Shown: one piece after another, positions 9,875 to 31,383 of the stretch | Layout of the letters: each line of letters starts with the position of its first letter | How positions within the stretch are numbered: the stretch's first letter is position 1 | IMG/VR virus record: IMGVR_UViG_3300045136_000478 | Location: 1-34,281 of that record | DNA: 34,281 bases | Origin: a virus | Strand: one strand, 5' to 3' | Made by a program: the position numbers and the translations under genes | Notes under the pieces: generated by a model | Databases searched by the model: none | What the model was told of the DNA's origin: nothing | Seen by the model: only the letters and a program-made list of their open reading frames with translations

Positions 9875-12265
9875 CTAGAGACCCACTCCCCAGGCGGCCG
9901 CGGCGAGCTCGTTGCCCGCGTACCTGGAGGCGGGGTGCGAGATCCCGCTCGTCAGCTTGCGCAGCTCACGGTTCTGCTCGCGGGTGAGCTGGGCGAGCGT
10001 CCAGGTATTGGTGGCCACCTGCGCTGATCCGAGGTCGACGTTCGAGCCGAACTGTCCGATCAGACCGTGGAGATCGCGGAGGAACTCGAAGCTCATGCGC
10101 CGCCAGTCTTCGAGACTGAACCCTTCCCCGTCTCGGTCGCCTGTGCGCCGCTCGCGGAGCCCTGCGAGCGCTGCTCGGCGCATGCCCTGCCGTGTCCAGC
10201 CCTGGCGTCCGACCTGCGCCTGCTCGAAGAGTCTGCGGGCGCGCTCGGCGTCGGCGGCCGCCTTCCGCCGCACCCGCTCGAGACGTGCCCGCTCCCGCTC
10301 GGCCGCGGCTTCACGCTGGGCTTCCAGCCGGGCCTCACCTTCGGAGACGATCGACTCGATCGCCTGCTGTTCGGAGGCGACCTGCTCGTAGAGCGTGCGG
10401 AGCTCCTGCTTCTGCTGAGCGGTCAGTCTCTTCCGCCGCTCGAGCGCATCGATGCGGCGCTGGTAGTAGCCGAGAGCCTCACGGTGGAAGCGCAGGTCGT
10501 CCGCTCGACCCGGTGTCGCCTGGGCGCGCGCCTGGTCGAGCAGGATGTCCTCGATGGTGCGGGCGGGGGGACGCTCGGAGTTACCCGTGCCTCTCGTGCT
10601 CGCGCTCGCGCCGCTCGCGCCACGCCGTGTCTGCTGCGGAGACGAGACGCCGGGTCGACGCGGATCGAGCGTATCGGGTGCCGCGTGTGATCCCTCGCGT
10701 GCGAGCATGCCCTCGGCGGCGGCGAGATCCTTCTCGCTCGTCGCCTGCCAGGCAACACGAAACGCCTGGCGCTCGGTCGGCGTCAGCGCGTCGAGCCCCT
10801 CACGGACGGCGCGCTGGGCGACTGCCGTGATGCGCGGGTACCGCTCGGCGTACTCCCCGGCGAGGAGCTTGCCGCGGATCGAGCGGCGGGTGCCCTCCTT
10901 CGCGCCGCTCGCACCTGGCGTCGAGACAATGGCAGCTGCGCTCGCGGCTGCGACCGTGCCCGCACTCGGAACGAGCGAGAGGAGCGCCGCTCGCAGCACG
11001 GCCACACGCCCGGCGTTGACCGCCGCTGCTGTGCCGATCGTGTTGAGCGCGGCCACGGAGACAGCCGCGCTCCGGGCGGACGTCGGCCCGAGAATCGCGA
11101 TCGCCGTGCGCAGCGCGCCGAGTCCGCGCACGATCGCGAGGATCTTCCCCGCGGCGAAGGCGGCAACGAAGAGCTTGGCCGCGTTCTCCGCCCCGCCGAG
11201 CAGATCGACGAGCGGGCGGAGCGTGTCCCTGACGAGCCGGAGCCCGCCGGCGAACCCGCGGACGACTTGCTCGCCGGTCTCGATCGCCCGGTTCACCCGC
11301 TCCTGGATGCGACGCTGGTTCTCGGCGTCGCCCAGGTATCTCGAGAGCCGGTCGGAGAGGCTGGTCACGGCCGGGAGCAGCCCCATCCCGACGATCTCCA
11401 TCAGGTTCTCCCACTCCACGCGCAGACGGTCAGAGGCGGCGACCGCGTCGTCGGAGGCCTCCTCGGCAGCGCGCCCGTACGCGCGCTGCAGCGCCGCGAG
11501 CAGCTCAGTGCGTGTCGCAGTCCGGTCGACGTCGATCCCGATCCGGCGCAGGGCACCGCTCATCCCCAGATTCGCCTTGTTCACGATCTGGGCGGCCTGC
11601 TCGAGGTCGATGTACCGTCCCCGGGCAACATCGATCGCGAGCGCGTTCAGCTCGAGCGCCTTGTTCACATCGCGGGTGGAACGCACGAACATCTGGAAGG
11701 TCTGCATGAGCGCCTCGTCGTCGAAGCCGAGCTTCGCCTGGGCGCGGATGACCGCGTCGATCCGCCGGATGTACTCGTCGTAGGAGATGCCGAGCGCGTC
11801 CAGGGCCACCTTGGTCTGGCCGCGCACGTTCTGCTCCTCCTTGGCGGCGGAGATCGCGGTGCGCACCGCGTAGACGAGCCCTTGCGCCCCCACGTAGGCG
11901 GAGGCGAGTCCCACGGCCGACCGAACGAGCGAACGGGTGGAGATCGTCGCGCCCCGCTGCGCCCGCTCGAGGTCGCGCATCTCGCGTGCCTGCCGGTCGG
12001 CGGCGCGCGCCGCCTGCTCCTCCGCGTCTCTGAGGGCGATCGTCGCGCGCTTGGCCTGGGCCGACTCGGCACCGTACTGGGCGAGCGACTTGCGCAACCG
12101 GTCCTGCGCGAGATCCAGCCGGAGCGCCTCCCGGGACATCTGCCCGACCGACTCGCGCCACTGCGCCTCCGCGCGCTCCAGGCGCACCATCTCGGAGGTG
12201 TCGACGTTGAGAACGACGGTTGCCCCGCCCGTCGCCCCTCCGCGAAGCGCGTCACCGAACGCCAC
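9875..12265 (-). CDS. Tape measure protein
   Basis: 796 residues from GTG 12265, chosen because GGGAGGAG lies about 7 nt upstream. The frame opens further to 12292, but that overlaps the chaperone frame. The N-terminal 110 residues are a long charged coiled coil (AQDRLRKSLAQYGAE, RDAEEQAARAADRQ). Hydrophobic segments follow near the middle (KLFVAAFAAGKILAIVRGL, LRAALLSLVPSAGTVAAA). A second long coiled coil (DALERRKRLTAQQKQELRTL, EARLEAQREAAAERERARLE) and a short C-terminal domain end it. It sets tail length and is ejected with DNA. By the usual 0.15 nm per residue its length would fit a tail of about 120 nm. Confidence 0.9.
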   Translation of the reverse strand: MAFGDALRGGATGGATVVLNVDTSEMVRLERAEAQWRESVGQMSREALRLDLAQDRLRKSLAQYGAESAQAKRATIALRDAEEQAARAADRQAREMRDLERAQRGATISTRSLVRSAVGLASAYVGAQGLVYAVRTAISAAKEEQNVRGQTKVALDALGISYDEYIRRIDAVIRAQAKLGFDDEALMQTFQMFVRSTRDVNKALELNALAIDVARGRYIDLEQAAQIVNKANLGMSGALRRIGIDVDRTATRTELLAALQRAYGRAAEEASDDAVAASDRLRVEWENLMEIVGMGLLPAVTSLSDRLSRYLGDAENQRRIQERVNRAIETGEQVVRGFAGGLRLVRDTLRPLVDLLGGAENAAKLFVAAFAAGKILAIVRGLGALRTAIAILGPTSARSAAVSVAALNTIGTAAAVNAGRVAVLRAALLSLVPSAGTVAAASAAAIVSTPGASGAKEGTRRSIRGKLLAGEYAERYPRITAVAQRAVREGLDALTPTERQAFRVAWQATSEKDLAAAEGMLAREGSHAAPDTLDPRRPGVSSPQQTRRGASGASASTRGTGNSERPPARTIEDILLDQARAQATPGRADDLRFHREALGYYQRRIDALERRKRLTAQQKQELRTLYEQVASEQQAIESIVSEGEARLEAQREAAAERERARLERVRRKAAADAERARRLFEQAQVGRQGWTRQGMRRAALAGLRERRTGDRDGEGFSLEDWRRMSFEFLRDLHGLIGQFGSNVDLGSAQVATNTWTLAQLTREQNRELRKLTSGISHPASRYAGNELAAAAWGVGL

Positions 12266-12471
12266 CGCGCATCTCCTCCCGCAGCCGGACAAGCTCGGCG
12301 TGGCGCGCCTGGAGCCGCTCCGCCTCGCGGCGCTCCTCGACCAGATCGGGCCGGCTCAGCCACACCTCCAGGGCGGTGAAGGCGGCCTCCTCGACGAGCC
12401 ACTGGGTCACCTCGTCCTCACCCTCCCATCCACATCCGCACTCACACCGCACCCAGGTCAGCGCTGGAAAG
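12252..12471 (-). CDS. Tail assembly chaperone, frameshift (T-like) extension
   Basis: This frame is open from 12530 to the TGA at 12252 and lies between the tail chaperone and the tape measure, where the gpT part of a gpGT product is expected. It carries a Cys cluster (WVRCECGCGWEG) and a charged helix (VEERREAERLQARHAEL). It has no convincing ribosome site of its own. It lies in the +1 (or -2) frame relative to the upstream gene, and the frames overlap at CTT TCC (12471-12466). A programmed shift would join about 187 residues of the G-like protein to about 70 residues here. An internal GTG start is the alternative. Confidence 0.6.
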
Positions 12472-15161: not shown

Positions 15162-15797
15162 TCACGGCCTCCGACGGTACGGCTGCAAGCGGTGGCGCAC
15201 CGAGACGGGCATGCCGCGCCCCGCGAAGATGGCCTCCGCCTCGGGGACGACCGTGTACCCCGCCTGCGAGCTCGAGGCGAACGTCCCCGGGTTGGCCGTG
15301 AGGTTCTTCACCCACTCGAGGCACGCGAGCTTCACGTCCTCCGGCACCTCCGGCATCCCCCAGGAGCCCGTCACCGATGCCTGCCAGCCGAAGCCCGGCT
15401 GCACGGGGGCAACGCTCGGCGGGATCGTCACGATCCCGAGGTACGTGCCTCCCGGGGCTCCCCCGACCGGCCGCAGCCGGTACTCGTCCGAGGAGAGCGA
15501 CTGTGGATCGGCGGTGTCGCTGTACAGCTCGACGCTCGTCGCGGCAACGAGGTCGTAGGGCGCGAGATCGATCCAGCCAACGACGGCACCGTCGAGGATC
15601 ATGCGTCGCAGCGTGAACGCACGCGTCGCCGTCCCGGCCGGCCGGAACTCGCGCTCGCAGTACGTCCAGATCGCGCTCGAGCAGAGGTTGACCGCGTCCA
15701 CGAGCAGTCCGTCCCGGGAGCCGTCGTTCTCGTCGCGCCAGCAGTACGAGCGCGCCTCCTCGAGGCTGACGAGCGCCCGAGAGCTGAGGTCGTTCAC
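15162..15797 (-). CDS. Head-tail connector (adaptor) protein
   Basis: 211 residues from GTG 15797, overlapping the upstream TGA. The opening SLEEARSYCWRDENDGSRDGLL and a helix AVNLCSSAIWTYCEREF are the pattern of HK97 gp6-like connectors, which sit under the portal. The middle (DLVAATSVELYSD, YRLRPVGG) is beta-rich, and a helix (EVPEDVKLACLEWVKNLT) follows. It is longer than the simplest gp6 proteins (about 110 residues), because of that inserted beta part. The frame continues upstream, but only as a shadow. Confidence 0.8.
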   Translation of the reverse strand: MNDLSSRALVSLEEARSYCWRDENDGSRDGLLVDAVNLCSSAIWTYCEREFRPAGTATRAFTLRRMILDGAVVGWIDLAPYDLVAATSVELYSDTADPQSLSSDEYRLRPVGGAPGGTYLGIVTIPPSVAPVQPGFGWQASVTGSWGMPEVPEDVKLACLEWVKNLTANPGTFASSSQAGYTVVPEAEAIFAGRGMPVSVRHRLQPYRRRP

Positions 15798-16111
15798 GCG
15801 AGCGCCTCGGCGTGCTCGACGACGAAGGAGACCTCCTCGGCGGCGTGCGCGGCTCCCGTGCCCTGGCAGTGGACGTACCAGGTTCCCTCGGCAGGCTCGA
15901 ACGTGAGTTCGTAGATGCCGGTCGAGGGGTGCGTCACCTCCGGATCCGTGCCGGCGATGTACGACGTCGGTGGCTCGAGCACCCCACCGATCCGTCGCCG
16001 CGCGGTGAAGGTGACGGCAGTGGGATCGGTCAGCACCCCCTCGTCGTCTGGCACGCGGAACTCGGCGTGGACGATGACCTGCGCGCCCTCCATGTAGACC
16101 TGCATGGCCAT
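15794..16111 (-). CDS. Beta-sandwich head/neck protein
   Basis: 105 residues from ATG 16111 (a second ATG at 16105 gives two residues fewer). It has alternating strands (GAQVIVHAEFRV, AVTFTARRRIGG, STGIYELTFEP, GTWYVHCQGTG, VSFVVEHAEAL) as in small Ig-like phage domains. It lies between the 18-residue-repeat protein and the connector. The stop codon of the upstream gene is part of the CGATAGG motif before its start. Confidence 0.65.
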   Translation of the reverse strand: MAMQVYMEGAQVIVHAEFRVPDDEGVLTDPTAVTFTARRRIGGVLEPPTSYIAGTDPEVTHPSTGIYELTFEPAEGTWYVHCQGTGAAHAAEEVSFVVEHAEALA

Positions 16112-16117
16112 GCCTCA

Positions 16118-16124
16118 CCTATCG
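16118..16124 (-). promoter_or_regulatory. Start-associated motif, copy 4
   Basis: The minus strand reads CGATAGGTGAGGC then ATG. The TAG inside the motif is the stop codon of the 18-residue-repeat gene, so element and stop are merged. The spacing is one base shorter than the consensus. Confidence 0.6.
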
Positions 16125-17549
16125 GTCGCAGGCGAGGAGCTCGAGCTCGACGTCTGCCGCAGCCGCCTGTCGGAGGACGATGGTCGAGGCGGGTCTCGAT
16201 TCGAGCCGAAGCCGGGCCGCACCGCTCACGCTCGTCGCTTGCGCAGCGGGCGTGCGCAATCCGAGGCTGACGAGGGCCGCAGGTGTGTGCGTGAGCGCGA
16301 GACAGGCACGGATCGTGACCCCCAGCTCGCGCGGCGCTCTTCCCGCGGCGATCGCTCCCCCGATCACGATCCCGACCGAAGCCGAGCCGCTCGTGCCACC
16401 CGCCAGGAGCCCGCTCGCTGATGCGGTGACGACCGCGCTCGGTGAGGTGCCGGCCGCTGCTGCCGCTCCGCCGGGCACGACGATCAGAGAGCCCGGGGAG
16501 TAGCCTCCCGCCGAGGCGCCACCGGGTGTGGGCGTCTCGGTCGTGCCGCTCTCGGCGTTCGGCGGGTACCCGCCGGCGGTCGCGCCACCTGGCACTGCGG
16601 CGACGACGGCTCCCGAGGGCGTGCCGGCAGCGAGCGCGCCGCCTGCCTGCGCCGTGACGACGGGAGCGGGAGCTACCCCCTGGGCCTGCGCGCCTCCGAT
16701 CCCGACCGTGGTCGCGGGCTGCGGGCTCTGTCCTTCGGCCGTGGCGCCGCCGATCTGCACTGGCGTCGCCGAGGTCGGCGCGACACCCTGCGCGACCGCT
16801 CCTCCGGCCTGCATAGAGGTCGAGACGGTCGGGCTCCGACCCTGAGCCAGCGCCCCACCCGCCTGCGCCGTGACTGTGATCGTGGGTTCGCGCCCTTGCG
16901 CGGTCGCAGCGCCAGCCTGGGCGGCCGCGACCGCGCTCGGGGAGACGCCGCCGGCGATCGCTCCGCCGGGCGTGGGCGTCTCCCTCGTGCCCTCGCTCGC
17001 GGTCGGCGCATTGCCGGCGGCGAGCGCGCCGCCGGGCGAGAGCGTGACGACCGCGCCGGCTTCGACCCCGGCCCCGAGCGCAGCTCCCGGCTGAGCCGTT
17101 GCAGCGACGCCGGGAGAGAGCCCCTGGCCGACTGCACCGCCAGTAGCGACGGCGACAACGGGACCGGGTGACGCTCCCTGAGCGGAAGCTCCTCCGGGCT
17201 GCGCACCTGCGGCCGCAGCGGGCGCGAGGCCCTGGGCGAGCGCGCCACCCGGCGAAAGGGCGACGGTCGGCTGCGGCGTCTGACCCTGGGCGAGCGCGCC
17301 GCCGGCCGGCACTGCGGTGGAGAACGTGGGCCCGAAGCCCCCGGCGATAGCTCCTCCGGGCGCGACGGCGGCGGCAGGCTGCGGCGAGACGCCTGCCGCA
17401 GGCGCCCCGCCCGGGGCTGCCCCCACGATCGCGACCGGCGCGAAACCACCGGCGAGCGCGCCCCCGGGCGGGACGGTGGGAGGCCCTGCCTTCGTCCCGA
17501 CCCATGCTCGCCGCCGGGCGAGTGTCCAGCGGCGCCGGTAGACCCCCAT
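16119..17549 (-). CDS. Gly/Ala/Pro 18-residue-repeat protein
   Basis: 476 residues from ATG 17549 with GGAGG 6 nt upstream. After a short basic leader (YRRRWTLARRRAW), residues 29 to about 407 are about 20 tandem repeats of 18 residues with consensus GGAxAxGxxPxxxxxxxP. Two 22-residue variants carry the same ETPTP insert. A non-repetitive beta-rich end of about 70 residues follows (TIRACLALTHTPAALVSLGL). The repeats contain almost no charged or aromatic residues. A regular A-x-A-x-G pattern every 18 residues fits a beta-solenoid or polyproline-like rod. Located between the capsid-accessory genes and the connectors, it may be a head or neck fibre. I do not recognise the family. Confidence 0.7.
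   Translation of the reverse strand: MGVYRRRWTLARRRAWVGTKAGPPTVPPGGALAGGFAPVAIVGAAPGGAPAAGVSPQPAAAVAPGGAIAGGFGPTFSTAVPAGGALAQGQTPQPTVALSPGGALAQGLAPAAAAGAQPGGASAQGASPGPVVAVATGGAVGQGLSPGVAATAQPGAALGAGVEAGAVVTLSPGGALAAGNAPTASEGTRETPTPGGAIAGGVSPSAVAAAQAGAATAQGREPTITVTAQAGGALAQGRSPTVSTSMQAGGAVAQGVAPTSATPVQIGGATAEGQSPQPATTVGIGGAQAQGVAPAPVVTAQAGGALAAGTPSGAVVAAVPGGATAGGYPPNAESGTTETPTPGGASAGGYSPGSLIVVPGGAAAAAGTSPSAVVTASASGLLAGGTSGSASVGIVIGGAIAAGRAPRELGVTIRACLALTHTPAALVSLGLRTPAAQATSVSGAARLRLESRPASTIVLRQAAAADVELELLACDR
16359..17465. repeat. About 20 tandem 54-bp units
   Basis: Each unit codes for 18 residues beginning GGA and carrying P at position 10. The protein repeat is far more regular than the DNA repeat, so the array is old or under protein-level selection rather than freshly amplified. 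Confidence 0.75.
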
Positions 17550-17558
17550 CGGGGCCTC

Positions 17559-18053
17559 CTACGGCAGCTCGCGCACGTACGCGGTGCCGCTCAGATTGAC
17601 CGCATCCGCGGGGGCGAGGTTGAGCCGGACGACGAGAGCCTCGGCGTTCGCGACCAGGAGCCTGTGCTCGGGCGGCGGCATCCACACGTACGGGACGCGC
17701 ACGTTCAGCCCGTCGGCGTGCAGCGTCACGGGGGTGCCGGAGGTCGTCGCGACCGTCGTGTCGTTCGTGCGCGCGGTAAAGCCGGCCGCGGAGTCGTTGA
17801 CGAGCACGGGCCGCGGCGTCGCGGCCGAGCCGCCGGAGCCGGCGGTCACCGTCGCCGGCAGCCGGATCATCTCGACCCGGAGTAGCTCCTCCTGCGCGTC
17901 GCCTGCATCGGCTGTCCCGCCGACGTTCGCGAGGTAGACGGCTTCGAGCACGCACACCTTGTCCGCGGCCGGCTTGCAGTAGAAGAGATCCTGCACGGCG
18001 CTCACCGAGACGGCGGTGAAGGTGACGGTGTACAGGCGCCCGTGTCCGATCAT
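17559..18053 (-). CDS. Head-region beta-sandwich protein
   Basis: 164 residues, ATG 18053, with GGTGAGGAC just upstream. It is beta-rich throughout (GRLYTVTFTAVSVSAVQDLF, KVCVLEAVYLANVGGT, LLRVEMIRLPATV, NVRVPYVWMPPPEHRLLV, EALVVRLNLAPAD). It resembles small capsid decoration or spike-base proteins annotated in actinophages. It sits between two repeat proteins and may anchor one of them. Function inferred from position. Confidence 0.6.
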   Translation of the reverse strand: MIGHGRLYTVTFTAVSVSAVQDLFYCKPAADKVCVLEAVYLANVGGTADAGDAQEELLRVEMIRLPATVTAGSGGSAATPRPVLVNDSAAGFTARTNDTTVATTSGTPVTLHADGLNVRVPYVWMPPPEHRLLVANAEALVVRLNLAPADAVNLSGTAYVRELP

Positions 18054-18065
18054 CGTGTCCTCACC

Positions 18066-19445
18066 TCACATCCGTAGGAGAGTGTTGCGCGTGACCCGGC
18101 GGTCGGCGTAGACGAGACTGCGAGGGGGCGTGTAGTCCACCTCCAGGTAGCAGTAGTCGAGGTTGCCCGTCATCGCGGTGCTCGTCGAGCCCTTCGTCAC
18201 GCGGATGCGCGCCTCGATCGTGTCGCTCGTCTGCGCCGAGCGGAGCTGCGCGAGGGTGGGGGTGGGCGAGAAGGTCGCCTCGCCTGCCTCCTCGGTCGTC
18301 GTCGTCTTGACGGTCTCCGTGCCCGCGTTCGCGTTCCCGACGCGCGGCTGGAGACCCAGCGCGCCGCCGGTGACGGACGCCGTCATCCCCCACTCGACCT
18401 TGACCTTGACCGAGTTGATCGTCGAGCCATCGGGGATGCCCGGATCGCTGATGGTATGCAGTAGGGTGCCACTGTTCCCTACTGCTACCCAGGTCCCGTT
18501 GCCGTAGCCGACTCCGTTGAGCGACGGCGTGCTGTGCTCGTTTCTCGTCCACGCGCCCGTAGGGTCGGTGGCGTAGCGCAGCGCGCCGCTGAAGCCCACC
18601 GCCACCCAGGTTCCGCCGCCGTAGGCGACTCCGTAGAACGTTGTGGTGCCCTGAGGGTTGCTCGTCCACGCGCCCGTGGGATCGGTGGCGTAGCGCAGCG
18701 CGCCACTCCCACCTACCGCTACCCAGGTTCCGCCGCCGTAGGCGACGGACTCGAACGTCGTGGTGCCCTGAGGGTTGCTCGTCCACGCGCCCGTAGGGTC
18801 GGTGGCGTAGCGCAGCGCGCCGCTGAAGCCCACCGCCACCCAGGTTCCGCCGCCGTAGGCGACGCCCAGGAAGCCCGTCGTGCCCTGCGGGTTCGAGGTC
18901 CACGTCCCCGTGGGATCGGTGGTGTGGTACAGCGTGCCGCTGTCTCCCACCGCCACCCAGGTTCCGCCGCCGTAGGCGACTCCGTAGAACGTTGTGGTGC
19001 CCTGAGGGTTGCTCGTCCACGCGCCCGTAGGGTCGGTGGCGTGATACAGCGTGCCACCCTGGCCCACTGCCACCCATACGCCGTTTCCATAGGCGACTCC
19101 GTCGAACGACGCCGTGCCCTGAGGGTTCGAGGTCCACGTCCCCGTGGGATCGGTGGTGTGGTACAGGGCTCCACTACCACCCACGGCTACCCAGGTCCCG
19201 TTGCCGTAGGCGACGCCCAGGAAGCCCGCCGTGCCCTGCGGGTTCGACGTCCATGCGCCACCGACGAGCGGAAATGCCTCCGTCGTGATGTCGGGGAACC
19301 CGAAGTCCCCGCTCAGCGTCGCGTTCTTCGCGCTCGCGAGCGTCGCGTACACGTTGTCGCCTCTCAGCGCGTACGCGTTCTGCGGGTTCGTCCACCCCGT
19401 CGCGACGACGGTGTGACGGTTCGCGGGACGGCGCGTGATCGGCAC
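18066..19445 (-). CDS. Structural protein with inserted seven-repeat beta-propeller
   Basis: 459 residues from GTG 19445, directly after a TAG. Residues 1-62 (ATGWTNPQNAYALRGDNVYA, then GDFGFPDITT) and residues about 338-459 (IPDGSTINSVKVKVEWG, FSPTPTLAQLRSAQTSDTIE, LDYCYLEVDYTPP) read as the two halves of one beta-sandwich. Between them are seven 39-residue repeats with consensus WTSNPQGTTTF-GVAYGGGTWV, then AVGGSGALRYATDPTGA. The TDPTGxW turn resembles the Asp-box of BNR propellers, and seven units match a seven-bladed propeller. The repeats may bind a glycan or another ligand. It lies downstream of the major capsid gene, so a head-surface role is likely but not shown. Confidence 0.75.
   Translation of the reverse strand: MPITRRPANRHTVVATGWTNPQNAYALRGDNVYATLASAKNATLSGDFGFPDITTEAFPLVGGAWTSNPQGTAGFLGVAYGNGTWVAVGGSGALYHTTDPTGTWTSNPQGTASFDGVAYGNGVWVAVGQGGTLYHATDPTGAWTSNPQGTTTFYGVAYGGGTWVAVGDSGTLYHTTDPTGTWTSNPQGTTGFLGVAYGGGTWVAVGFSGALRYATDPTGAWTSNPQGTTTFESVAYGGGTWVAVGGSGALRYATDPTGAWTSNPQGTTTFYGVAYGGGTWVAVGFSGALRYATDPTGAWTRNEHSTPSLNGVGYGNGTWVAVGNSGTLLHTISDPGIPDGSTINSVKVKVEWGMTASVTGGALGLQPRVGNANAGTETVKTTTTEEAGEATFSPTPTLAQLRSAQTSDTIEARIRVTKGSTSTAMTGNLDYCYLEVDYTPPRSLVYADRRVTRNTLLRM
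18435..19253. repeat. Seven 117-bp tandem repeats
   Basis: Seven in-frame units of 117 bp code for the propeller blades. Several differ at only a few bases over long stretches, for example those around 18558 and 18792. The near-identity points to recent duplication or gene conversion; the seventh unit (nearest 18435) and the two outermost at the other end are the most diverged. Confidence 0.85.
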
Positions 19446-19727
19446 CTACATCGCCTCCGGGCGCGAGATCGCGCCCTGTCCGAGCAGCTCGACGAGGCCG
19501 CTCGCGCGCGCCGGGTGGTAGCCGACCGAGACGACGACCGGGCCGAGGTGTAGGTCGAGGTACGGCCCGTACGGGCCGTGGTCGCCCTGGCGGTGGCAGG
19601 GGTCGAGGTGCAGCCCGAGCGACAGCGTGCCGTCGAACCGCCACTGGACGAGCCAGCAGGGGCCGTACCACAGGCCCCAGGCCGGACCTAGGTGGTGTCG
19701 ATGAAGAGGATGCCCGCCGGATCCCAT
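19446..19727 (-). CDS. Small protein with HLDPC..GDHGPYGPYLDLHLG motif
   Basis: 93 residues if it starts at ATG 19727, overlapping the end of the upstream gene by 40 nt; no later ATG, GTG or TTG is in frame before the conserved part. The core (GLHLDPCHRQGDHGPYGPYL, then DLHLGPVVVSVGYHPAR) is a pattern I have seen in short phage proteins of unknown role. It touches the propeller gene start (TAG then GTG). His and Asp residues could bind a metal, but nothing proves this. Confidence 0.6.
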   Translation of the reverse strand: MGSGGHPLHRHHLGPAWGLWYGPCWLVQWRFDGTLSLGLHLDPCHRQGDHGPYGPYLDLHLGPVVVSVGYHPARASGLVELLGQGAISRPEAM

Positions 19728-20137
19728 TGCAGCGTGTACGGGGTGGACACGGTCTGGTCGGAGTCCCAGGCGAGCAGCGCGTACAACGGGTCGGTGGAAG
19801 AGGCCCCGCCCGTGTCGATCCACATGACCCCGTAGCGCCAGGTCTTCGACGCGGTGAATGTCCAGGTCACGTCGGCCGCGTCCCAGCGCACCTGGTCGGA
19901 CGCCGAGTCGTAGGTGATCGTCTTCGAGCTGAGCGTCTCCCCGCCTGCCGTGTACCCGGATCCGGCGCTGATCTCGTTGGTGGCGTCGTTGAAGAAGTCG
20001 TCCGTGTCGCGGTTCGGCGTGTAGGACGACGTGTGCAGCGAGAGCTTCACCGTGCCCGACAGGTAGTTGACGTCCGAGCCGACCTGCTCGGCGATCTTCT
20101 CCATCGTCAGCCCGTAGAAGGAGACCGTGATGGCCAT
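19688..20137 (-). CDS. Phage structural protein, tail or head accessory
   Basis: 149 residues, ATG 20137 with AGGAG upstream. It has the pattern of a common small phage structural protein: VNYLSGTVKLSLHTSSYTPN, then a DATNEI segment, GYTAGGETLSSKTITYD, VRWDAADVTWTFTASKTWRY and PLYALLAWDSDQTV. Such proteins appear in the head-accessory region of many siphoviruses. The role is unknown; a virion surface or neck location is likely. Confidence 0.7.
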   Translation of the reverse strand: MAITVSFYGLTMEKIAEQVGSDVNYLSGTVKLSLHTSSYTPNRDTDDFFNDATNEISAGSGYTAGGETLSSKTITYDSASDQVRWDAADVTWTFTASKTWRYGVMWIDTGGASSTDPLYALLAWDSDQTVSTPYTLQWDPAGILFIDTT

Positions 20138-20832: not shown

Positions 20833-22260
20833 CTAGAAGCTCGGCGCGACGAGTCCGGTGCCGCCGATGACCGAGGTCGCCGCCGGGTAGCGGCCACCGG
20901 TGAAGGCCACCTCGCCCCAGACCGCGAGCCTGACTGACTGCGGGGCGTTCGCCTGCTCGAACGTGAAGGTCCGCGGCCCGCCCGCCGGGTCGAGCCACAG
21001 ACGGTGGTCCTGCGGGCGGGTGACGATCACGACGTCCTCGTTCGTGCCGGCCCCGAGGTTCGTCGGGATGTTGTTGTCGGTCACGACGGGGAGCCCCTGG
21101 ATCGTGCCGACCACCGCCCCGTACTCGGGCGCGTCCCCGACCGCGAGCGCGTTGAACGGACCCTGCGCGTTCGGAACGGCGAGCGGCCTGCCGGCCGAGT
21201 CGAGCGTGCCCATGATCCACTCCCAGCGCCGCCCGTGCATGAGCGCGAGCAGCGGAGGCGCGTGCCGGTTGGTGACGATGCCCTCCTTGGCGCCGGCGAA
21301 CTTCGGGTAGAACTCGCCGACGGTCGGAGAGGCGTCCGTGTAGGTGATCGAGTTGATCCCCGCCACCGAGCGGAGGCCGAGCACGGTGCCCGCGGTGCCG
21401 TCGGCGTTCAGGCATGCCGCGTCCACCTTCGTCCACCAGTCGGCGATCAGATCGGCGAAGATCGTGTCGACCGCGTCCCGCGAGCGCTCGACCGCCTGCC
21501 GGGAGAGGTCGTTCTGCCCGGGGTACTGGCGGATCGGGACCGACATGAGCGTGTCGTCGAAGTCGGTCTCCTGGACGGCCGCGTTCTCGGCGGCCTGCGC
21601 GGCGACCGCCGTCCCGGTCGTGCCCCGCGGGATGTTGATCACCATGCCCTCCTCGGGCAGGTTGCGGCGCACGCCGGCGAGCGCTGCGAGGAACGGCGCG
21701 CCCGCCCGAGCGAGCGGGGCGTACTCGTCCACGAGGTACTGCGGGATCGTGAACCCGGAGAGCGCCCCGGTGCCCACGTCCCGCATCTCGCGCCCGAACC
21801 GCTCCCGGTACACGTCGGCCATCTGCCGCTCGTGCTGGACGAGCCGCTCGGCCGCGTCGGAGCGGTGCGCGAACTGCACGGCGTACACGTCGCGGGCGAA
21901 GTCGGCGAACGAGTGCCGGTCGGGCCGGTAGACGAGCTCGGCCCGGGCCCCGCCGCGCGGCGTCGGCTCCGGCCGGCGCCGGTCGGGCTCGGGGATGGCC
22001 GCCCGCCGCTCTTCTGCCTCCAGGTTCCCCTGGATGCGGGCGTACTCGGCGTGCGCGTCCTCGAGCGCCTGTCCCGTCGTCTCGAGTTCCTCGGCAAGCG
22101 TCCGCGCGGTCTCCGCGTACGCGGCCCGCTCGGCCTCGTCGGTCGGCTCGTCGCCGAGCTCGGCGATGCGGGCCCGAACGGCCTCCCATGCCTCCCGGGC
22201 GGCTCGCAGCGCGGCCTCGGCCGCGTCGCGCTGACGCGTCAACAGGTCGATGGTCTCCAT
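20833..22260 (-). CDS. Major capsid protein, HK97 type
   Basis: 475 residues. Residues 1-95 are a charged coiled coil (the delta scaffold domain: RQRDAAEAALRAAREAWEAV, LEETGQALE-type segments). A proline/arginine-rich stretch follows, then the HK97 fold from about residue 115 (FADFARDVYAVQFA, GFTIPQYLVDEYAPLARAG, GMVINIPRGTTGTAV, LPVVTDNNIPTNLG, FEQANAPQSVRLAVWGEVAF). It follows the prohead protease, which would remove the delta domain during maturation. Its ATG lies 1 nt after the protease stop. Confidence 0.93.
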   Translation of the reverse strand: METIDLLTRQRDAAEAALRAAREAWEAVRARIAELGDEPTDEAERAAYAETARTLAEELETTGQALEDAHAEYARIQGNLEAEERRAAIPEPDRRRPEPTPRGGARAELVYRPDRHSFADFARDVYAVQFAHRSDAAERLVQHERQMADVYRERFGREMRDVGTGALSGFTIPQYLVDEYAPLARAGAPFLAALAGVRRNLPEEGMVINIPRGTTGTAVAAQAAENAAVQETDFDDTLMSVPIRQYPGQNDLSRQAVERSRDAVDTIFADLIADWWTKVDAACLNADGTAGTVLGLRSVAGINSITYTDASPTVGEFYPKFAGAKEGIVTNRHAPPLLALMHGRRWEWIMGTLDSAGRPLAVPNAQGPFNALAVGDAPEYGAVVGTIQGLPVVTDNNIPTNLGAGTNEDVVIVTRPQDHRLWLDPAGGPRTFTFEQANAPQSVRLAVWGEVAFTGGRYPAATSVIGGTGLVAPSF

Positions 22261-24494: not shown

Positions 24495-24567
24495 TAGCGG
24501 GCCCGGGAGTCGAACCCGGTTGCCGAGGTCATGAGCCTCGTCTCTGCGCCCGGCCGAGTCGCCCGCA
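24495..24567 (-). tRNA. tRNA-Met (CAU anticodon)
   Basis: The 73-nt cloverleaf on the minus strand has acceptor strands TGCGGGC and GCCCGCT, a 3-bp D stem (CTC/GAG), anticodon arm CGAGG-CTCATGA-CCTCG and T arm CCGGG-TTCGACT-CCCGG, with discriminator A. CCA is not encoded. Oddities: position 1 and 72 would be a U-U mismatch, and base 8 is G rather than U. The D-stem 11-24 pair is U-A and only two of the three initiator-type GC pairs are present, so an elongator tRNA-Met, or a lysidine-modified Ile tRNA, is more likely than an initiator. It lies between the terminase and head genes and is bracketed by two CGATAGG motifs. Confidence 0.85.
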
Positions 24568-29961: not shown

Positions 29962-30470
29962 GCCGCCGCTCCGCTCGGCCGACGCTGGGCGCGCCAGCGT
30001 GCTGCGTGTTCGAGCACCTGCTTCTCGATCGCCTCAGCCTGCGGCCGCGCCGCCTGCCATACGTCCAGCATGCGCGTCTGCAGCGCCTGGTCGTCTCGCC
30101 ACTCGCGCAGCATCCCGTGGGGCCCGAACAGCTCGTCGACGACCTCCTCGTCGCTCTCGAAGTGCTTGCCCGCGGCGCGGATCCACCGCTCGGCCCGCAT
30201 CGCTGCCTGCTCCCTACTCGCGCCCGTCTCGACGCTGACTTCGCGCAGCGGTCGCGCGCTGCGCTCGAGCCGCGCTCGGAGCGCCGACCACGCCCAGGTC
30301 ACCTGCCCGGACTCGAGCGCCGAGGCGATCTCGCTGATCGAACGTTCGACTCGCTGCGGGGTGGCGAGGAAGTGCTCGATGATCGCGGCCTCATCCTCGG
30401 CGCGTGGTGTCTGCCCGGCGAATCGCTCGATCGCCAGGGCACGGAGCGCCTGCCAGTGGATCTCGCTCAC
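29958..30470 (-). CDS. Helical replication-module protein
   Basis: 170 residues from GTG 30470 (GTGA overlap). It is all-helical: IHWQALRALAIERFAGQTPR, AIIEHFLATPQRVERSISEI, RAERWIRAAGKHFESDEEVV, MLDVWQAARPQAEAIEKQVL. It lies directly after the iteron-containing replication protein gene and before the Csf1-like gene. A helicase-loader-like role would fit the position, but no ATPase motif is present. Confidence 0.65.
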   Translation of the reverse strand: MSEIHWQALRALAIERFAGQTPRAEDEAAIIEHFLATPQRVERSISEIASALESGQVTWAWSALRARLERSARPLREVSVETGASREQAAMRAERWIRAAGKHFESDEEVVDELFGPHGMLREWRDDQALQTRMLDVWQAARPQAEAIEKQVLEHAARWRAQRRPSGAAA

Positions 30471-31051
30471 GGTGCACCTCCTCTCGCTGCCAGAGCCGCC
30501 AGCTCGGCTCGGGGATCGATCCGCGACGGCTCACCCGCACCCGCACCCGCCCCGGCGTCCTGTAGTTCCGGTTCGGGTAACGGTGCGGGTGAAGGAGTAG
30601 TACTAGGGGACGGGACGGGAACGCGCGCGCGCGCCCGCGCGCGAGGAGACGGTCTCGTAGACGGTGGTGTAGACACCTCTGTAGACGCTTCTGTAGACGG
30701 TGGTGTAGACGGTGGTGTAGACACCTCTGTAGACGGTGCTGTAGACGATCGCTGTCGCCACCTCCGTTGCCTCTCGGCCTTCGTGGGATCGGTCGGGTTG
30801 TACTCGCGCCAGTCGTGCACAACCCACTCGTCACCGCTACGGTCGACGAGCCCGAGCTGTTCGCAGCGTTCGAGGAATCGGCGTGTCACTCCCGGCACCT
30901 CGGTGCGCACGCCGGCGACATCGATCACTCCATCCGTCCTGTGCCGTGCGCAGTAGCACAGGAGCCGCACCCAGGCGCGGAACTCGCGATCGCTCAGGCG
31001 TGCGATCTTCGGGTGGCTCGCGAACGCGTCGTCGATCCGAAGCCAGGCCAC
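30467..31051 (-). CDS. Replication initiator-like protein (phage replisome organizer N-terminal type)
   Basis: 194 residues from GTG 31051, which shares a base with the upstream TAG. Residues 1-95 are a winged-helix pattern typical of phage replication organizers: AWLRIDDAFASHPKIARL, EFRAWVRLLCYCARHRTDGV, FLERCEQLGLVDRSG, EWVVHDWREYNP. Residues 110-160 are a low-complexity (S-T-x-x)n tract encoded by 12-bp iterons, followed by an R-A repeat and a proline-rich tail. As with lambda O, the origin may lie inside the gene, in the linker between the DNA-binding and loading regions. Confidence 0.75.
   Translation of the reverse strand: MAWLRIDDAFASHPKIARLSDREFRAWVRLLCYCARHRTDGVIDVAGVRTEVPGVTRRFLERCEQLGLVDRSGDEWVVHDWREYNPTDPTKAERQRRWRQRSSTAPSTEVSTPPSTPPSTEASTEVSTPPSTRPSPRARARARVPVPSPSTTPSPAPLPEPELQDAGAGAGAGEPSRIDPRAELAALAARGGAP
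30622..30643. repeat. Alternating CG tract
   Basis: 22 bases of almost unbroken alternating C and G, with one CC break. It codes for the RARARAR run of the replication protein. Such tracts can adopt the Z form under supercoiling. It lies just 14 bp from the iteron array. Confidence 0.7.
30657..30752. repeat. Eight 12-bp iterons
   Basis: GTAGAC starts at 30657, 30669, 30681, 30693, 30705, 30717, 30729 and 30741, exactly 12 bp apart. The six-base fillers are mostly GGTGGT and ACCTCT, so part of the array also has 24-bp periodicity. In the coding frame they give (S-T-P/E-x)n. Perfect phasing in a replication gene suggests an origin iteron array; codon-level slippage of a disordered linker is the alternative. 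Confidence 0.85.
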
Positions 31052-31383
31052 TACGCCGCCTGCTCCCATGGTCGTCTGAGGTCGGCCTCGATCAGCCCCG
31101 CGAACCAGTCGGCGTCCGTCCATACCCCTACATCCGCCCCAGCGCTGCGAAGCTCAGTGAGCCAGGCCGCCTGTTCGGCGGTCAGGGTGTTGCCGCGTAC
31201 CTTGAGCTCGCGGAAGAGGACCTGTCCGCGCCCGCAGAGCACGAGGTCGGGGAAGCCCGTGCCATCGGCCTGCACGGGCGTGCGCCAACCACGGCCCGTG
31301 AGCGCTGGCCGGAAGTGCGCGACCCGGTAGCCGAGGAGACGAGCGACGTCGATGACACCGCGCTGCAGCTCGCGCTCGGTCAC
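31051..31383 (-). CDS. VRR-NUC nuclease
   Basis: 110 residues from GTG 31383 (GTGA overlap). The compact VRR-NUC fold is complete: TERELQRGVIDVARLLGYRV with Glu 5, then GTGFPDLVLC (D46), FRELKV (E59, K61), and the helix TLTAEQAAWLTELRSAGADV with a final VGVWTDADW strand. Stand-alone VRR-NUC proteins of phages cut branched DNA, including Holliday junctions. It lies in the replication and recombination block, just upstream of the initiator-like gene. Confidence 0.9.
   Translation of the reverse strand: MTERELQRGVIDVARLLGYRVAHFRPALTGRGWRTPVQADGTGFPDLVLCGRGQVLFRELKVRGNTLTAEQAAWLTELRSAGADVGVWTDADWFAGLIEADLRRPWEQAA

Follow-up and report, generated by a model that had tools for sequence, protein, structure and literature searches.

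The closest described counterparts of the protein presented here are the head-filament candidate of phage phiCbK, the adsorption module of the satellite MiniFlayer, and a group of repeat proteins in actinophages. For phiCbK, the original report names gp76 as the most probable head filament—based on its size, its richness in Gly, Ala, and Pro, its lectin domain, and its position—and states that gp76 was not detected in the virions (PMC3556154). Our comparison places gp075, a homologue of the protein family phrog_644, directly before gp76 with a gap of ~75 bases. For MiniFlayer, a tail fibre gene together with three hypothetical proteins was suggested as an adsorption module (PMC10690885). In this satellite, phrog_644 directly follows the capsid gene, and gp8—two genes after phrog_644 and just downstream of the capsid—combines short beta-like repeats with a laminin-G/lectin-type domain; a search of the PDB sequences with MiniFlayer gp6 gave no match. 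In the actinophages, Orchid gp38, Gibbles gp37, and Moosehead gp28 lie one or two genes after phrog_644 and are built of short units of small residues, of which those of the two Gordonia phages, Gibbles gp37 and Moosehead gp28, match the 'minor tail protein' families phrog_7114/phrog_553.

Here, we describe a further repeat protein in the company of phrog_644, encoded on a viral DNA stretch of 34,281 nucleotides (IMG/VR record IMGVR_UViG_3300045136_000478), which was analysed as a whole and is called the window in the following. The gene (16119..17549, minus strand) starts with ATG and encodes 476 residues according to the ORF list; a Shine–Dalgarno-like AGGAGG (17555-17560, minus strand) lies upstream and overlaps the stop codon of the preceding gene. 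The protein consists of a basic N-terminal segment (residues 1–28, with six Arg and one Lys; 17466..17549, minus strand), a repeat array (residues 29–414; 16308..17465, minus strand), and a C-terminal segment without the GGA pattern (residues 415–476; 16122..16307, minus strand). The array comprises 21 units of GGAxAxGxxP plus eight residues. An earlier note on this DNA had counted 20 copies, which both our parse and a position-weight-matrix parse correct to 21; its description of about 380 residues in 18-residue units almost devoid of charged and aromatic side chains is borne out by an array of 386 residues in near-strict 18-residue phase, with only 14 K/R/D/E and five F/W/Y/H. Of the 20 unit spacings, 18 are exactly 18 residues and two are 22, both with an ETPTP insert. 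The lag-18 autocorrelation of the protein reaches 0.33, whereas 500 shuffled sequences do not exceed 0.19 at their best lag, and the pattern G[GA]Ax[AG]xGxxP occurs 18 times, compared with a mean of 0.08 and a maximum of two in 2000 shuffles. Gly and Ala make up 47% of the array (182/386).

Like this protein, phiCbK gp76 is rich in Gly, Ala, and Pro (21/12/7%), lies near head genes, and keeps company with phrog_644. Unlike it, gp76 spans 2799 residues and bears poly-Gly domains and a ConA-like lectin domain, which is absent from the window protein (no Pfam family matched). A 22-24-residue periodicity is found in the C-terminal third of gp76 (residues ~1750 to 2450), where, as in the rest of gp76, no run of 18-residue unit matches and no homology was detected. 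The repeats of Orchid gp38, Gibbles gp37, and Moosehead gp28 place Pro or Gly between probable strands as do the window units, but they differ in their 24-residue units, their consensus, and their C-terminal globular domain. A common family with these 24-residue repeat proteins was rejected, as the window protein is not among the matches listed in an hmmsearch with the 24-residue unit; likewise, we do not claim homology of the C-terminal domain of the named phages to the extra domains of the relatives described below (hhalign probability 35; absent by hmmsearch). MiniFlayer gp8 differs by its length of 1376 residues, a weaker periodicity (z 4.8), and another repeat consensus.

The earlier note knew no named family with this repeat, and our searches agree: the window protein has no match in Pfam, PHROGs, or the PDB sequences (zero PHROG and zero Pfam families), and tblastn against 50,697 phage records was negative both for the protein itself and, at E up to 1, for a block from the related locus L005. 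Among open-licence papers, none on the 18-residue repeat or on phrog_644 was found. Judged by its sequence, the 18-residue GGAxAxG repeat family is hence new relative to the libraries searched. A search for related loci with the repeat protein returned 51 pattern stretches, none of which was confirmed, and a search with the capsid protein returned L002 alone; L002 carries no phrog_644 and stops ~600 bases beyond its capsid gene, which puts the position of the repeat gene out of reach. Two DNA patterns derived from the units led to ten relatives with real arrays: L003, L004, L005, L006, L008, L009, L010, L011, and L012 from IMG/VR and L017, a contig of an actinobacterial metagenome-assembled genome. 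The window protein falls within this family by the same definition of at least three GGAxAxGxxP units in phase. L007 and L013-L016 were rejected as chance pattern matches. A looser DNA pattern gave at least 119 stretches; as judged by a unit scan and the inspection of eleven frames, its new loci either consist of simple Gly/Ala repeats or do not keep the phase, and they served as controls only.

The 11 family proteins, the window protein included, hold 170 units, with 8 to 27 units each. Of their 159 spacings, 120 equal 18 and the others are 19 or more, in a parse that bars spacings under 17 and uses a matrix trained on 97 strict units of the same 11 loci, in which G1, A3, G7, and P10 are set by the search pattern itself. 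Between adjacent strict units, the step from P10 to the next G1 takes nine residues in 47 of 66 cases and 10–14 in the others, the G1–P10 distance again being set by the search pattern. The C-terminal tails of the L004, L005, L009, L010, and L012 proteins carry FDxPTPxGGxDxGxP-like or FDEPTP-like repeats, which the window protein does not have. Members without a fused domain—the window protein (residues 1–28), L003, L004, L009, L011, L012, and L017—have, by eye, a short stretch containing Arg and aromatic residues ahead of the array, which might be an anchor. In L005, the array is preceded by a fused domain that resembles part of a separate upstream protein of 470 residues in L003 (blastp 1.5e-9) and part of an upstream gene in L004 (5.6e-5).

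The two ETPTP inserts of the window protein (residues 190–194, 16968..16982, and residues 338–342, 16524..16538, both minus strand) end the 22-residue units 9 and 17 and lie 148 residues apart, i.e., 8 × 18 + 4; the first block of the protein has no ETPTP-like motif at its start. Units eight positions apart share a mean DNA identity of 0.564, compared with 0.497 overall, and this super-period of eight units is significant against reordering of the units (P=0.008 for DNA and P=0.014 for protein, with the maximum over 13 offsets taken). The likeness of units eight apart supports an old block duplication in the array. The earlier note had read such a duplication from the shared insert; the duplication itself fits the super-period, yet the insert is not merely a relic of it, since ETPTP-like motifs are present in all 11 family loci (22 anchors). 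Within one protein, successive motifs are spaced N × 18 + 2 or + 4 residues apart, with N of 2, 3, 4, 6, or 8 and one exception in L006 that contains an inserted domain, and the number of units per block varies from 2 to 8 across the family. On the DNA level, the two ETPTP regions of the window are 56% identical, in keeping with an old duplication, and every one of the four Gly codons is found at unit position 1. The mean identity between units is 0.55, 0.57, and 0.36 for codon positions 1, 2, and 3. As position 3 is far more diverged than positions 1 and 2, it is the protein pattern that is kept, while similarity of the DNA has decayed.

In the window, the gene order runs terminase, portal, protease, capsid, phrog_644, a WVAVG repeat gene, a 164-residue protein, the 18-residue repeat protein, a 105-residue protein, an adaptor, and tail genes including the tape measure protein. 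The placement in a head/neck block given by the earlier note thus holds, with the repeat gene flanked by terminase, portal, protease, and capsid in one direction and by the adaptor and the tape measure in the opposite one. The capsid gene (20833..22260, minus strand) was identified by PHROG and Pfam, the tape measure gene (9875..12292, minus strand) by a weak match (E 5e-5), and the head-tail adaptor phrog_442 (15162..15791, minus strand, start approximate) by a match of E 1.8e-17 to residues 110–318 of ORF 15162-16118. The cassette marker phrog_644 (19688..20137, minus strand; 149 residues, PHROG match E 2.9e-20) is followed by the next large gene (18066..19445, minus strand), whose 459-residue product carries TSNPQGT...GGGTWVAVG repeats of ~39 residues; it matches no PHROG, and its Pfam match to Frataxin_Cyay (16.7 bits) lies under the cut-off of that family. 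The tandem units of this gene of ~117 bp (39 residues), TSNPQGTTTFYGVAYGGGTWVAVG, look propeller-like by eye. The 164-residue protein between the two repeat genes (17559..18053, minus strand) could be assigned to no PHROG or Pfam family and has no tblastn match in named phages and none in the PDB sequences, and the 105-residue protein (15794..16111, minus strand), which looks beta-sandwich-like by eye, matches neither PHROG nor Pfam. Two large genes hence separate phrog_644 from the 18-residue repeat gene. Elsewhere in the window, a tRNA-Met gene (24495-24567) lies between the terminase and portal genes, and the ORF for replication initiation (30467-31123) contains tandem repeats of 24/48 bp (30647-30755) that might represent iterons.

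The terminase of the window shares ~31-33% identity with its Streptomyces phage counterparts. The adaptor phrog_442 also lies shortly downstream in L005, L009, L012, and L017. The capsid belongs to phrog_2263 in the window, to phrog_10 in L004, L010, and L012, and to phrog_777 in L003 and L006; in L003, the cassette lies before the capsid gene rather than after it. Because capsid families and gene order differ in this way, the cassette is mobile across phage lineages while remaining among the head genes where a capsid is visible. A pectate-lyase-like spike gene is part of the cassette in L012 and L017, and genes resembling glycosyltransferases by eye lie near the cassette in L003 (6206-6850) and L010 (4593-5288).

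A phrog_644 profile built from 13 named-phage homologues finds phrog_644 in 10 of 11 family loci, compared with 3 of 115 control contigs (Fisher 1.6e-11); the controls comprise every remaining unnamed locus apart from L001 and L002. The lone family locus without it, L009, is a contig of 5,965 bases whose repeat gene starts ~175 bases from the edge. The link extends to periodic proteins more generally. In 17 named-phage loci—chosen by us for spread from homologue matches (40 and 80 records)—the first gene of at least 110 residues after phrog_644 on the same strand is strongly periodic (z at least 6) in nine cases, compared with 1 of 122 other genes, a comparison that excludes genes cut by the locus ends and many short genes (Fisher 5.6e-9). 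That definition skips shorter genes such as MiniFlayer gp7 and Moosehead gp27. Some of these loci are relatives of one another (Orchid/Gibbles, Sixama/Mareelih, ReT1v-2/REQ3, Guey18/Keelan, and phiCbK/RBC11), so that the counts are not independent and this P value overstates the evidence; phiCbK, moreover, was added because of its paper and is a biased pick, without which the count is 8 of 16. Eight of the 17 next genes fall below z 6, those of RBC11, TPA4, NoShow, and S-LBS1 below 2. The single periodic gene among the 122 others abuts a second copy of phrog_644; such an arrangement is seen in Mycobacterium phage Onyinye (L136, 8874-9428), where the second of two copies lies beside another periodic protein. 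In the three control contigs that bear phrog_644 and were not chosen for periodicity, the next genes reach z of 39.3, 9.1, and 8.1. One control contig, L044 (2320-3537), encodes a 406-residue protein of near-perfect 22-residue units directly after phrog_644 and a Gly-rich protein further on. The repeat units following phrog_644 in these named and control loci measure 22, 24, or ~40 residues and differ in sequence, and the resemblance is therefore a likeness of kind rather than demonstrated descent. In the window, the next gene after phrog_644 is that of the WVAVG protein, and the 18-residue repeat gene comes two genes further.

For the fold of the repeat, AlphaFold2 was run on a loosely aligned piece of 185 residues (pLDDT 42, pTM 0.27) and on seven units with a register-true alignment of 27 blocks, whose five models range in pLDDT from 35.5 to 61.0. 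Structure prediction had been proposed as a check by the earlier note. The best model (pLDDT 61, pTM 0.60) shows regular strands, two per unit at positions ~3–6 and ~11–16; Foldseek of the models against the PDB and viral models returned nothing at E<=0.001. Using VIA-align against 143 chains, the model is closest to 3lyc (Z 10.2, 2.4 Å over 126 residues) and 3jx8 (Z 10.0, rmsd 2.3 over 124 residues), followed by curlin (Z 9.8), an ice-binding protein, and trimeric-adhesin heads, with the Rhagium antifreeze protein at Z 8.0; for repeats, as the tool itself warns, such Z values may reflect a common arrangement only. All of them beta-solenoids, two-sheet ones included, 3lyc, 3jx8, the Rhagium antifreeze protein, and curlin resemble this model of moderate confidence in geometry and are unrelated in sequence. 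The models support, without proving, a two-strand beta rod that is solenoid-like. The earlier note had offered a narrow beta-solenoid or a polyproline-like fibre. The two strands per unit and the solenoids at the top of the aligner list support a beta-type repeat, of which a monomeric solenoid would be one candidate form; the polyproline-like fibre was rejected as unlikely, with only ~2 Pro per 18-residue unit (40/386). Collagen-like and polyglycine-II arrangements were rejected as well, as Gly recurs at unit positions 1, 2, and 7 and not at every third residue. A solenoid rises by 0.48 nm per coil, which would give about 10 nm for the window array.

Taken together, we consider it probable that the protein serves as a shaft, carrying an adhesion fibre or spike on the virion. 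Every unit of 18 residues would contribute two short beta strands (AxAx and approximately residues 11–16) joined by the GxxP turn, and the units would stack into a thin rod. Additional residues would be accommodated—as parsed—after P10 and ahead of the following unit, at the place where ETPTP would begin the blocks. Encoded in one cassette with phrog_644 and other probable surface proteins—the pectate-lyase-like spike and unassigned domains in the relatives, the WVAVG repeat protein in the window—the rod might hold or present surface domains on the outside of the particle, where the virus would meet its host initially; the basic N-terminal segment might act as an anchor. The association of phrog_644 with repeat proteins, including the head-filament candidate of phiCbK, lends indirect support to a thin fibre. 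By a rule of thumb of 1 nm per 12-20 residues, as given in the phiCbK study, the 386-residue array would span roughly 19–32 nm (PMC3556154). The fibre would more likely sit on the head or neck than on the tail. Against this placement, most of the named actinophages considered have phrog_644 among their tail or lysis genes and not near the head, and the neighbouring repeat proteins in named phages are often found in the tail region.

A trimeric triple beta-spiral shaft like that of adenovirus or reovirus, instead of a monomeric solenoid, would keep the fibre role and give a longer rod, and we regard it as rather unlikely. The unit does read strand–GxxP turn–strand–loop with its length changes in the loop, an order that would be repeated along three chains and may be comparable to the adenovirus repeat, and a poor monomer prediction as in the first AlphaFold2 run would be expected for a trimer. 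Yet, inward-facing residues of triple beta-spirals are larger than Ala, whereas the inward positions here would be mostly Ala, and the monomer model already has regular strands. Alternatively, the protein might have no role in adhesion and instead decorate the capsid or be a structural part of the tail or neck, as a minor tail protein. The gene between capsid and adaptor and the 'minor tail protein' matches of periodic phrog_644 neighbours in the two Gordonia phages fit this role; the window protein itself has no match to the phrog_7114/phrog_553 profiles. A range of 8 to 27 units per protein, however, suits adhesion better than a mechanical part of constant size, as do the spike or lectin-type domains encoded next to it in the cassette, which makes a purely structural role unlikely. 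Quite unlikely, too, is a flexible and mostly disordered low-complexity spacer without a fold of its own: the Gly and Ala content, the low confidence of the first prediction, and the variable block size would agree with it, but the near-strict phase of 18, the protein-level conservation in spite of third-position divergence, and the strands of the registered model disagree. That the array is a chance frame in GC-rich repeats from which no protein is made—conceivable in a high-GC window with many overlapping long frames, among them a 641-residue frame overlapping on the same strand—is highly improbable given the ribosome-binding site, ten relatives sharing the protein pattern, and the excess of third-position divergence.

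Beyond the adhesion-fibre shaft proposed for the window, we tentatively suggest a wider picture, which we hold to be somewhat less than an even prospect: together with an adjacent beta-repeat protein of short period, phrog_644 might constitute a fibre module of two genes that is widespread in tailed phages. Herein, phrog_644 would attach or cap the fibre and the repeat protein would form its shaft in many unrelated consensus forms of 18, 22, 24, or about 40 residues. The window family would then be a new 18-residue head/neck form, and the same module would underlie the head filament of phiCbK, the adsorption module of MiniFlayer, and the 'minor tail' repeat proteins of actinophages.

Phage fibres built of repeats drift too fast for sequence searches, and most of them are hence unnamed. 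As a small and recognisable neighbour that predicts their place, phrog_644 would allow such repeat fibres to be found across phages. The same marker would make the composition and attachment of the phiCbK head filament directly testable, and the family described here supplies a compact 18-residue unit for the study of narrow beta rods.
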